DNA of 64,000 bases, from positions 806,001-870,000 of the forward strand of contig NZ_CP014854.1 in assembly GCF_002214365.1 (NCBI RefSeq), read 5' to 3'. A program made the translations under genes and the position numbers. This document shows positions 40,518-44,022 of the stretch, in pieces; positions within the stretch are counted from its first letter, which is position 1; the number at the start of each line of letters is the position of its first letter. This stretch comes from Thermococcus celer Vu 13 = JCM 8558. GTDB taxonomy: Archaea > Methanobacteriota_B > Thermococci > Thermococcales > Thermococcaceae. The notes under the pieces were generated by a model. It had not been told where the DNA came from and made no database searches. It was given only the letters and a program-made list of their open reading frames with translations.

Positions 40518-41192
40518 ATGGTGAAGGTGAGGTTCCTGGGCCACGCGGCGTTTCTGATAGAGGGGAGCAGGAGGATCCTGATAGACCCGTTCCTGACCGG
40601 GAATCCCGTGGCGGCCGTCAAGCCGGAAGAGGTGGACGCGGATCTCATACTCGTGACCCACGCCCACGGGGATCACATCGGTGATGCGCCGGAGATAGCC
40701 AGGAGAACCGGAGCGAAGATCGTCGCGATGTACGATATAGCCAACTACCTCGTTGAGAAGGAGAAGGGGATAACGACCATCGGCATGAACTACGGGCCGA
40801 CCGAGATCGATGGGGTCAAAATCGTTCAGGTCCCCGCCTGGCACTCCAGCAGCGACGGCAAGTACGGCATCGGAAACCCCTGCGGCTACATAGTCACCCT
40901 CGACGGCGTTACGGTGTACCACGCGGGCGACACCTTCATCTTCGGCGACATGAAACTCCTCTCCGAGCTCTACGGGCCCATCGATGTTGCCCTCCTTCCG
41001 ATAGGCGGACACTTCACGATGGGGGTTAAGGAGGCCGCCAAGGCCGTGGAGCTCCTCAGGCCGAGGAAGGTCGTCCCGATGCACTACAACACCTGGCCGC
41101 CGATCTCAGCGGACCCCGAGGAGTTCAGGAGGCTCGTGGGGGGCAAAGCCGAGGTTGTGATCCTCAAACCCGGCGAGACCCTGGAGCTTTGA
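40518..41192 (+). CDS. UPF0173 metallo-beta-lactamase-fold hydrolase
   Basis: A 224-residue MBL-fold protein of the UPF0173 group. Metal ligands appear in THAHGDHIGD (His48, His50, Asp52, His53), WHSSSDG, YHAGDTFIF and PMHYNTWP. Substrate unknown. GGGTGGTACC precedes the ATG, and a TATA-like TATTATATTC lies about 20-25 bases upstream. It is followed 45 bases later by the membrane-anchored regulator gene, which has its own ribosome-binding site. Confidence 0.88.
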   Translation: MVKVRFLGHAAFLIEGSRRILIDPFLTGNPVAAVKPEEVDADLILVTHAHGDHIGDAPEIARRTGAKIVAMYDIANYLVEKEKGITTIGMNYGPTEIDGVKIVQVPAWHSSSDGKYGIGNPCGYIVTLDGVTVYHAGDTFIFGDMKLLSELYGPIDVALLPIGGHFTMGVKEAAKAVELLRPRKVVPMHYNTWPPISADPEEFRRLVGGKAEVVILKPGETLEL

Positions 41193-41237
41193 AAAACCTT
41201 TTAAGGGGCTTTCCTTACCCTTTTTTCAGGTGGTGGA

Positions 41238-42245
41238 ATGGTCAAAAGGGCTCTGGCGTTGGTACTAATCTTCATAGCGTTCTCATCCTTCCTCATCCCC
41301 CTCTCCTCGGCCCAGGGAGGCGGGAACGAGGGTCCCAAGTACGATTTAATCATCGTCAGGAACGACGATCTGATCGATTACATCGTCGCGCTCCCCTACG
41401 CGAAGATGCTCGACGTCCCGATTCTTCCGGTTAACCCGAAGGAACTCGATCCCGGTACCATGGCCCAGCTCCAGAGCTACTCCCAGTTCGGGTGGAACCA
41501 CGTGCTCATAATAGGCGACTCCCAGGCGGTGAGTGACACCGTCCAGGACGAGCTACTCAGGATGGGCTTCACTGTCGAGAGGATAGGCGGTGCGGTTAGA
41601 ACGGAGACGGCCGCAAAGCTGGCGCTGTACTTCTATCCGAACGGTTACGATACCGTCGTCGTCGCCAGCTCCAGCGATTACGGCTCGGCCCTGGCGGCGG
41701 CGAGGTGGGCCATGATATACGGCTACCCCCTGCTTTTAACGCAGGAGGATGCGCTCTCCGATTCGACGGCCAGCGCGTTGAAGAAACTCCACCCGGATCT
41801 CGTCCTCCTGATGGGGGCGGGCATGTCAAAGGACGTCCAGACCAAAATAGAGAGCATGGGTTACCAAACCTACTGGGTCAAGGAGACCCTCAAGATAACT
41901 GTGCCCAAGCAGCCCAAGGAAACTAACTGGGTAACGGTGGTGGCCGCGGTGTTGCTCTCGCTCGCCGTTGCGGTTCCGGTCTCGCTCTACTACGCCAAGA
42001 AGAAGTGGTCCTCCAACAGGGTTCCCATCGAGGTCCTAACCGAGAAGGAGCGCATAGTTGTTAAGGCCATCCTCGAGAAGGGCGGCGTCGTCAAGCAGGA
42101 GGAACTGCCGGAGCTCACGGGCTATTCCCGGCCGACCATAAGCAGGATCATCCAGGAGCTCGAGAAGAAGCAGCTCATTGAGAGGAAGAAGGTCGGGAAG
42201 ACCTTCACCGTCAGGCTCACGAAGGAGATAGTCATGAGGGAGTGA
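41238..42245 (+). CDS. Membrane-tethered regulator: CWB2-like ectodomain, TM helix, cytoplasmic winged helix
   Basis: A 335-residue protein with a clear order of parts: signal peptide (1-25, cleavage after SSA), an extracellular alpha/beta region resembling cell-wall-binding repeat 2 (about 34-215, with repeated units such as HVLIIGDSQAVSD and LVLLMGAGMSKDV), a single membrane helix (231-252), and a cytoplasmic winged helix (about 262-333, EELPELTGYSRPTISRIIQELEKKQLI). It looks like a one-component sensor whose DNA-binding domain is anchored at the membrane. GGTGGTGG precedes the ATG. Ligand and targets unknown. Confidence 0.8.
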   Translation: MVKRALALVLIFIAFSSFLIPLSSAQGGGNEGPKYDLIIVRNDDLIDYIVALPYAKMLDVPILPVNPKELDPGTMAQLQSYSQFGWNHVLIIGDSQAVSDTVQDELLRMGFTVERIGGAVRTETAAKLALYFYPNGYDTVVVASSSDYGSALAAARWAMIYGYPLLLTQEDALSDSTASALKKLHPDLVLLMGAGMSKDVQTKIESMGYQTYWVKETLKITVPKQPKETNWVTVVAAVLLSLAVAVPVSLYYAKKKWSSNRVPIEVLTEKERIVVKAILEKGGVVKQEELPELTGYSRPTISRIIQELEKKQLIERKKVGKTFTVRLTKEIVMRE

Positions 42246-42317: not shown

Positions 42318-42461
42318 TTATTTCTTGAAGAGGTGGCCGTGGGACTTGCTCACGTGTCTCGCGTAGTCTCTGGACTTTCTAAACAGCATGCCACAGCGCG
42401 GGCAGCGGTAGTAGCGGGTTCCGTCGCGGTCGTAGAACACAACCGCCTTCAGCTCCGCCAT
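42318..42461 (-). CDS. Small C2H2 zinc-finger protein
   Basis: A 47-residue protein that is essentially one classical zinc finger: Cys20 and Cys23 (CPRC), then His36 and His41 (HVSKSH), spacing C-x2-C-x12-H-x4-H. The N terminus is [28 protein letters not shown] precedes the ATG. It is encoded alone, convergent with the membrane regulator gene. It may bind DNA, RNA or protein; no experimentally known role can be given. Confidence 0.78.
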
Positions 42462-42527: not shown

Positions 42528-43349
42528 TCAGACCCACACCCTGTTGCCCTTGATTTTCAGGTAACCGAGCCTCTGGAGCTCTTTGAGAAAGTCCTCCACT
42601 GCGTCCTCGTCGAAGTAAACGTTGAGCCTCCCACCTCCGCTCTCCACGACGATGGGTTCCCTCTCGAGAAGGGCCTCTATCAGCTCTTTCTTCTTCCCGT
42701 GCTTCTCCGCCAGCTTCACGACCACTCCCGCCAGAACGGAGCGCGCTATGCCGTCGAACATCGCCTCCGTTACGCTTTCCTCCGTGGCGTACTCCCCGGC
42801 TATCTCAAGGGCGGTTTCAATGAGCTCCCTATCCACCTCCACCACCTCAACGAAGTACCTCTTCTCCATGACGTATTCGGTTATCATCCTCGTTTCGAAG
42901 TGCTTCTCGAGTTCCTCAATGTACTCCTCGACCACCTCTATGGGAAAGCGGAGCTCCACCTTCAGGTTATCCAGAACCGGTTCCTTCACGAGCACGAGTT
43001 TTCCGTCCTCCTCGACCACCTGACCGCTCTCCATCAGGGCCTTGAGCACCAGGAGCCTTCCGAGGTCGGACTCATCGAGGAGCTCATCCAGTTCTTTCTC
43101 CTGCCCCGGCTCCCAGTTCTCCATTATCTCCTGGAAGGACAGCTTTAACTCGTCGAGGTTCTCCCCCAGGGGGCCTATCCCCGCGGCCTTTTCAACGAGT
43201 TCGGCGTACGTACCTTCCACAACTACGTAGTGGGAGATATCGGGCGTTACCTCCTCGCGGGTTCGGTTCATTATACCCGCCCGGCTCAGCTCCCTCGAGA
43301 GTGCGTTCATGTCCTCCTTCCTCAGAACTTCGAACCTCAAATCCCTCAC
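42528..43349 (-). CDS. Conserved hypothetical protein (alpha-rich, 273 residues)
   Basis: Not recognised. Mostly charged helices with several glutamate-rich stretches; a possible C-terminal winged-helix-like end (FLKELQRLGYLKIKGNRVWV). No Cys, no membrane segment, no signal peptide. A TATA box (GTTATAAC, about 43371-43378) lies 25-26 bases before GTG 43349, suggesting a leaderless mRNA starting there; a TTG four codons earlier is less likely. It is downstream of a membrane protein and a creatininase-like gene on the same strand but has this separate promoter. Confidence 0.6.
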   Translation of the reverse strand: MRDLRFEVLRKEDMNALSRELSRAGIMNRTREEVTPDISHYVVVEGTYAELVEKAAGIGPLGENLDELKLSFQEIMENWEPGQEKELDELLDESDLGRLLVLKALMESGQVVEEDGKLVLVKEPVLDNLKVELRFPIEVVEEYIEELEKHFETRMITEYVMEKRYFVEVVEVDRELIETALEIAGEYATEESVTEAMFDGIARSVLAGVVVKLAEKHGKKKELIEALLEREPIVVESGGGRLNVYFDEDAVEDFLKELQRLGYLKIKGNRVWV

Positions 43350-43380
43350 CCGATAAAACAACGCGTCATTTGTTATAACC

Positions 43381-44022
43381 TTAGCCCTCGATGAGCCCGG
43401 ACAGGAGAGCCCTCATGGGTCCATTGCCGAGGCTTGAGAGGGCCTCCCTCACCTCCCCCTCCAGCTCGGGGCGGAATCTGGTGTAGAGGTACAGGGAGTA
43501 GGCCATAACCTTTGGGTCGCCCTCCCCCATCCTCTCAACCGCCCCGGCGAGCAGGGAATCGTTGAGTAGCTCCTCCGCCAGAGCCTCCATCGCCTCCCTG
43601 TCATCCTTCTCGACGGCCTCGCGCAGGGGCTTGTAGAAGCGGGAAAGCACGAGCCTCGCGAGCCTCTCCCTTTCCTCGAGCTCGTCCATGGGTGTTTTTG
43701 GTTCCGCCCTCCTGCCGAGCCAGTAGTAGGCAACGGATAGCACGATTACAACGAGGGTTACGAGAAGGTACGGGAGCACGGGAAGGTTGAAACTGTAGGG
43801 GAGGCGGTGCCCGACGGCGATGAGTGAGAGAAACCCGAGAAGGATCCAGATGCCCATGAGAACGAGGTAGTAAAGAGAATAATCGTCCCTCCTGATGACG
43901 TTGTACCTTGACGGGGAACCCACCTCCTCAAGGTAGCGGAGCCTCTCCTCGGCTATATCGATCTCAGCCTGCAGGCGTTTTATGCGCCTGTCTATCTCAT
44001 CGAGAACCGCATCACGTCCCAT
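43381..44022 (-). CDS. Hypothetical membrane protein with N-terminal coiled coil
   Basis: A 213-residue protein. Residues 5-35 form a likely coiled coil (IDRRIKRLQAEIDIAEERLRYLEEV written over two heptads or so), followed by two membrane helices (about 50-70 and 80-102) and a cytoplasmic helical domain of about 100 residues. Function unknown. Its start overlaps the end of the creatininase-like gene by 11 bases, so the two are cotranscribed. Confidence 0.65.
   Translation of the reverse strand: MGRDAVLDEIDRRIKRLQAEIDIAEERLRYLEEVGSPSRYNVIRRDDYSLYYLVLMGIWILLGFLSLIAVGHRLPYSFNLPVLPYLLVTLVVIVLSVAYYWLGRRAEPKTPMDELEERERLARLVLSRFYKPLREAVEKDDREAMEALAEELLNDSLLAGAVERMGEGDPKVMAYSLYLYTRFRPELEGEVREALSSLGNGPMRALLSGLIEG

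Follow-up and report, generated by a model that had tools for sequence, protein, structure and literature searches.

A widely conserved archaeal membrane protein predicted to join CWB2 modules outside the cell to a winged helix inside it

The heat-loving archaeon Thermococcus celer encodes a protein that we believe is probably a single-pass transmembrane transcription regulator, one that would read the state of the cell envelope and act from the membrane; DNA binding, a dimer, signal transfer, and an envelope ligand would be its presumed parts. The architecture, topology, fold, and conservation of this regulator are established by prediction and comparison. The preliminary description of this DNA had called it a one-component regulator: the single-chain membrane protein with CWB2 outside and a winged helix inside has held up, and its binding to DNA is something that we infer. 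The gene lies within a 64,000-nucleotide stretch of the T. celer Vu 13 genome (the window), and positions refer to this stretch unless a locus is named (Table 1).

Results

The regulator has just two hydrophobic peaks, at residues 1-27 and 228-254. The first is the predicted signal peptide, whose hydrophobicity reaches 2.45 (at residues 5-23) and whose cleavage site, A-Q or equivalent, is retained in most orthologs. An AlphaFold2 model that was built on 34 orthologs (mean pLDDT 87.8, pTM 0.59) contains a helix at residues 2-26, an eight-stranded alpha/beta region at 37-214, a transmembrane helix at 231-259, and a winged helix at 262-332. Because the pTM is moderate, the placement of the inside part relative to the outside part is unreliable in this model. 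Pfam, AlphaFold2, and hydrophobicity agree that a signal peptide, an ectodomain, one membrane helix, and a C-terminal winged helix occur in one chain of 335 residues, as had been proposed, and the limits proposed earlier for the two main domains (residues 34-215 and 262-335) are essentially correct. An assembly artefact or a chance fusion can be ruled out because dozens of orthologs have the identical domain order.

The ectodomain is matched in two stretches by the Pfam family CW_binding_2 (PF04122; E = 1.8e-14, 54.5 bits versus a cut-off of 24.9). Also, residues 33-134 align to residues 135-222 in a profile-profile comparison (E = 1.8e-14, probability 98%), which makes what had been described as an extracellular repeat region a pair of CWB2 modules. 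Each module has a PILL-type motif once; the two motifs are 103 residues apart, and their prolines (P61 and P164) are invariant in 34 orthologs. The motif of module 2 is PLLL or PILL in most orthologs, while module 1 has PILP in Thermococcus, the fourth residue of which deviates from the pattern P[ILV][ILV][LV]. When the model was compared to the PDB with Foldseek, ranks 1-11 were Cwp6, SlpA/SlpH, and Cwp8 from Clostridioides difficile (E = 7e-9 to 1e-6, probability 1.00), and both phmmer and the ortholog profile lead to Cwp6, Cwp8, and SlpA as the solved relatives (E = 1.7e-37 for the profile against Cwp6). Structure prediction for residues 34-215, which had been suggested as a check, gives the CWB2 fold of these proteins.

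The winged helix matches DUF7343, a winged helix-turn-helix family, at residues 267-327 (E = 1.9e-10) and also matches MarR_2 (2.3e-6). The Pfam families that match this domain are mostly transcription regulators, and its Foldseek matches are mostly of the MarR or TFE type (including the MarR family, TFE-alpha, and others). The most conserved part of the regulator is the recognition helix together with the GKT wing. Within Thermococcus, the recognition helix is 98% identical, as compared to 74-81% for the CWB2 modules; its identity to other families is 55%, and S297, R298, and P299 are invariant.

Across the 34 orthologs, the 14 residues after the membrane helix have a mean net charge of +3.3, versus -0.9 before it, and the inside is more positively charged than the outside in 33 of them. 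This charge pattern and the N-terminal signal peptide predict that the N terminus is outside and the C terminus is inside, which would put the winged helix in the cytoplasm. A missing winged helix or a reversed topology had been named as grounds for giving up the original reading. As judged from AlphaFold2, Pfam, and the charge pattern, the winged helix is present and the topology is not reversed, so this test does not refute it.

Table 1. Features of the regulator gene and its product, and the paralog TTR2
Feature	Residues	Position	Strand	Basis
Promoter of the regulator gene, BRE/TATA-like AAAAACCTTTTAAG, right at the stop codon of the metallo-hydrolase gene that precedes it		41192..41205	+	Ortholog conservation
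Ribosome-binding site GGTGGTGG		41229..41236	+	Conserved in orthologs
Open reading frame of the CWB2 regulator, 335 amino acids		41238-42245	+	ATG to TGA
Predicted signal peptide, SSA-Q-type cleavage site	1-25	41238..41312	+	Hydrophobic peak, orthologs, model
CWB2 module 1	35-132	41340..41633	+	Pfam, AlphaFold2, Foldseek, profile, internal alignment
PILP motif of module 1	61-64	41418-41429	+
CWB2 module 2	133-216	41634..41885	+	Pfam, AlphaFold2, Foldseek, profile, internal alignment
PLLL motif of module 2	164-167	41727-41738	+
Single membrane helix, running into basic KKKW	231-256	41928..42005	+	AlphaFold2, hydrophobicity, charge
Cytoplasmic winged helix (DUF7343 / MarR-like), predicted	262-335	42021..42242	+	Pfam, AlphaFold2, Foldseek
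Recognition helix SRPTISRIIQELEK	297-310	42126..42167	+	Ortholog conservation
TTR2, paralog in the same genome		L063:9413-10360 (G000 C1:597412-598359)

The architecture is not the oddity of one genome. A survey across archaea, as the preliminary description had recommended, found a widely conserved gene that is usually present in a single copy: it is in 98 of 115 genomes from the phylum of T. celer (E <= 1e-100) and also in Methanofastidiosa, Theionarchaea, and Hydrothermarchaeota. A second phylum yielded matches in 18 of its 23 genomes (E <= 1e-50), and there are scattered copies in genome bins that are labelled Aenigmatarchaeota and Thermoproteota. When we checked four distant loci against Pfam, DUF7343 was found at all four and CW_binding_2 exceeded its cut-off at three; at the Thermoproteota locus, it fell below (20.7 bits versus 24.9). 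The regulator is an old gene that several groups of archaea have retained. Close pairs of orthologs have dN of 0.04-0.08 versus dS of about 1. The gene is under strong purifying selection, which extends to both domains.

On the other side of the ledger, the regulator was not found in 12 genomes of T. celer's own genus, several of them complete. Eight of these 12 contain the gene for the hydrolase that is otherwise upstream, with no trace of the regulator gene beside it. Several support values are weak in the tree of c3 and c5 proteins that we used for counting losses, and this tree at most suggests that the gene was lost more than once.

In Thermococcus, the gene upstream of the regulator encodes a hydrolase of the metallo-beta-lactamase fold, and this gene and two unnamed downstream genes are conserved. 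Among 18 Thermococcus orthologs, the BRE/TATA-like block and the ribosome-binding site are all that is conserved upstream of the regulator, and the remainder of the gap of about 45 bp drifts: we found no conserved palindrome or operator in it. We rejected self-regulation on this basis. The neighbors are also uninformative as to function, as the downstream gene c1 is kept where the regulator is absent, and in Methanofastidiosa the downstream position is taken by an aEF-1beta-like gene. The downstream genes at 42528-43361 and 43381-44022 (both on the minus strand) are conserved in Thermococcus and have no match in Pfam; for the former, most genomes also encode a distant paralog. A frame of 47 residues at 42318-42461 (minus strand) has a zinc-finger-like pattern (CxxC...HxxxxH) that we read by eye.

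The T. celer genome also encodes a paralog, TTR2, with the same layout: a signal peptide, an ectodomain, one membrane helix, and a DUF7343 winged helix. The two proteins have the module of membrane helix and winged helix in common, but the ectodomain of TTR2 has no CWB2 match, and its phyletic range differs from that of the regulator. Combining one such module with different ectodomains within a genome would be the usual modularity of one-component regulators.

CWB2 domains also occur in secreted proteins of about 400 residues (sCWB2). The 12 genomes that lack the regulator have no CWB2 domain whatsoever (at E <= 1e-3), and sCWB2 is found only alongside the regulator; the exceptions are G100 and G106, which also lack the two genes that otherwise flank it. 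Within the Thermococcus group that lacks TTR2, the association of regulator and sCWB2 has p = 0.0026 (Fisher's test, uncorrected for phylogeny). Joint absence thus suggests a loose tie between the regulator and CWB2 surface proteins, with few independent losses behind it. In the phylum of G058, we also noticed CWB2 domains in frames of about 1,750-2,480 residues, which may encode giant surface proteins (G137:C170:13274, G137:C35:38740, and G127:C9:1783002).

Genes for sCWB2 are preceded by as many as four WWAACG units, repeated every 10 bp, and then by a conserved BRE/TATA region; the whole arrangement is strongly conserved. A search of 115 genomes for such arrays gave about 97 matches, as compared to roughly 20 for a reversed control. 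The arrays are from Thermococcales (L064:8634-8790, which is G000 C1:1518633-1518789; L136-L164; and L167-L184). For all 35 of the matches that we tabulated by hand, from 18 genomes, an sCWB2 gene follows at a distance of 145-231 bp; the tabulation was selective, and this proportion should not be taken as unbiased. The phyletic range of TTR2 matches that of the WWAACG form, and in genomes without TTR2 the array takes a GGAACG or GAAAC form. We also saw pairs of GGAACG 75-90 bp before genes for secreted proteins other than sCWB2 (L207, L234, L211, and L217), including in some genomes without the regulator.

Discussion

In the model that we propose, the signal peptide sends the N-terminal portion of the regulator out of the cell, where the two CWB2 modules would lie under the S-layer. 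By homology to other CWB2 domains, they may bind a surface polymer, a glycan, or a CWB2-type surface protein. As the predictions and the charge pattern indicate, one helix would cross the membrane, and the winged helix just inside it would bind DNA, probably as a dimer. Gain or loss of a ligand outside would alter the geometry of the dimer, and a small set of promoters would be switched from the membrane. The regulator would be transcribed from its own promoter, and envelope and surface-protein genes are its likeliest targets. This model is supported by the domain matches and fold, by the two-module repeat, by the predicted topology, by the conservation of both halves together, by the conservation of the recognition helix and wing, by the purifying selection on both domains, by the modularity seen in TTR2, and by the joint absence of the regulator and CWB2 domains from 12 genomes. 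It is weakened by the number of modules (two rather than three, as discussed below), by the lack of an operator at the regulator's own promoter, by the uninformative neighbors, and by the small number of independent losses.

Which genes might be controlled? Perhaps the regulator directly controls sCWB2 by binding the phased AACG arrays, in a feedback loop whose sensor and product share the CWB2 domain. The position of the tabulated arrays and the co-occurrence of the two genes suggest this, and most sCWB2 promoters in the group without TTR2 retain a GGAACG version of the array, so something that binds the array probably exists there. We doubt it, however, as no array is found at the regulator's own promoter, and GGAACG pairs precede secreted-protein genes in G036 and G003, neither of which has the regulator. 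Furthermore, it is TTR2-like genes, and not the regulator, that adjoin sCWB2 (L068:3212-5307 and L166:5722-7871) or stand near it (L165:4845-7983). These three loci are from two genomes of T. celer's class and one of another phylum, and in L068 the units GGAACG-TGAACG-GAAACA, spaced by 10 bp, lie upstream. Because the WWAACG form follows TTR2, because GGAACG occurs without the regulator, and because TTR2-like genes are near sCWB2, the phased array is better attributed to TTR2 or another factor than to the CWB2 regulator. A broader idea is an old archaeal circuit for envelope sensing, in which winged-helix regulators anchored in the membrane, including one that shares its CWB2 domain with the surface proteins, would control a set of CWB2 and other secreted surface proteins via AACG arrays with 10-bp phasing; we consider this rather improbable too.

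Single-pass regulators can in principle act by regulated proteolysis. If so, an envelope signal would free the winged helix from the membrane to act as a free transcription factor. This seems quite unlikely to us: the membrane helix of the Thermococcus orthologs does carry a conserved proline, but only about 10 residues separate that helix from the winged helix (in orthologs and in the model), and we recognized no protease gene in the immediate neighborhood. Some winged helices bind proteins, and this one has just a slight positive net charge in Thermococcus (+1 to +4), as might be expected if the regulator were instead a surface-anchoring protein whose winged helix makes protein-protein contacts. 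Given that conservation peaks at the recognition helix and wing and that the matching Pfam families are mostly regulators of transcription, we think this very improbable.

How archaea sense the state of their S-layer and envelope is largely an open question. The regulator is a candidate sensor that is widely conserved, is usually single copy, and has an outside domain of known fold, which makes its ligand, regulon, and mechanism accessible to direct tests in the genetically tractable Thermococcus.

In C. difficile, a protein needs three CWB2 modules to stay attached to the wall polymer PSII, an attachment in which the PILL motif is important (PMC4973711). The regulator's ectodomain has the fold of Cwp6 (5j72), Cwp8 (5j6q), and SlpA/SlpH (7acx, 7acy), and its motifs are of the type found in them. 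In contrast to these proteins, it does not have the three tandem modules of the clostridial anchor, as the model and the internal alignment contain two only, and its CWB2 part is joined to a membrane helix and a winged helix. It is therefore not warranted to transfer the clostridial function directly. Also, no archaea are known to make PSII. The regulator would extend CWB2 from clostridial wall anchoring towards signalling.

Transmembrane transcription regulators (TTRs) have been surveyed in bacteria and archaea: there are 1,384 archaeal TTRs, 367 archaeal species have at least one, and the Thermococci are among the enriched groups (PMC10269533). The regulator has a predicted membrane helix and a predicted DNA-binding domain in one chain, as TTRs do, and it crosses the membrane once, as most TTRs do (PMC10269533). 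What sets it apart from the surveyed TTRs is that a signal peptide and a CWB2 ectodomain come first and the DNA-binding domain stands at the C terminus. We found no mention of CW_binding_2 in the survey's main text. Among open-licence papers, we found none on a CWB2 sensor in a transmembrane regulator and nothing specific on CWB2 with archaeal regulators, on DUF7343, or on winged-helix membrane proteins of Thermococcales. The membrane-bound one-component regulators ArnR and ArnR1 of Sulfolobus acidocaldarius have been studied experimentally, and in ArnR the helix-turn-helix is N-terminal, the two membrane helices are C-terminal, and there are also HAMP-like and sensor regions (PMC6396743). In the regulator, this order is reversed, and one membrane helix follows the signal peptide, which is not the ArnR layout. 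The suggestion that such a design is poorly described in archaea therefore applies to the CWB2 ectodomain and not to the design itself, given the survey of TTRs and the work on ArnR and ArnR1: the class is already documented in archaea, and the CWB2 sensor appears to be the new element.
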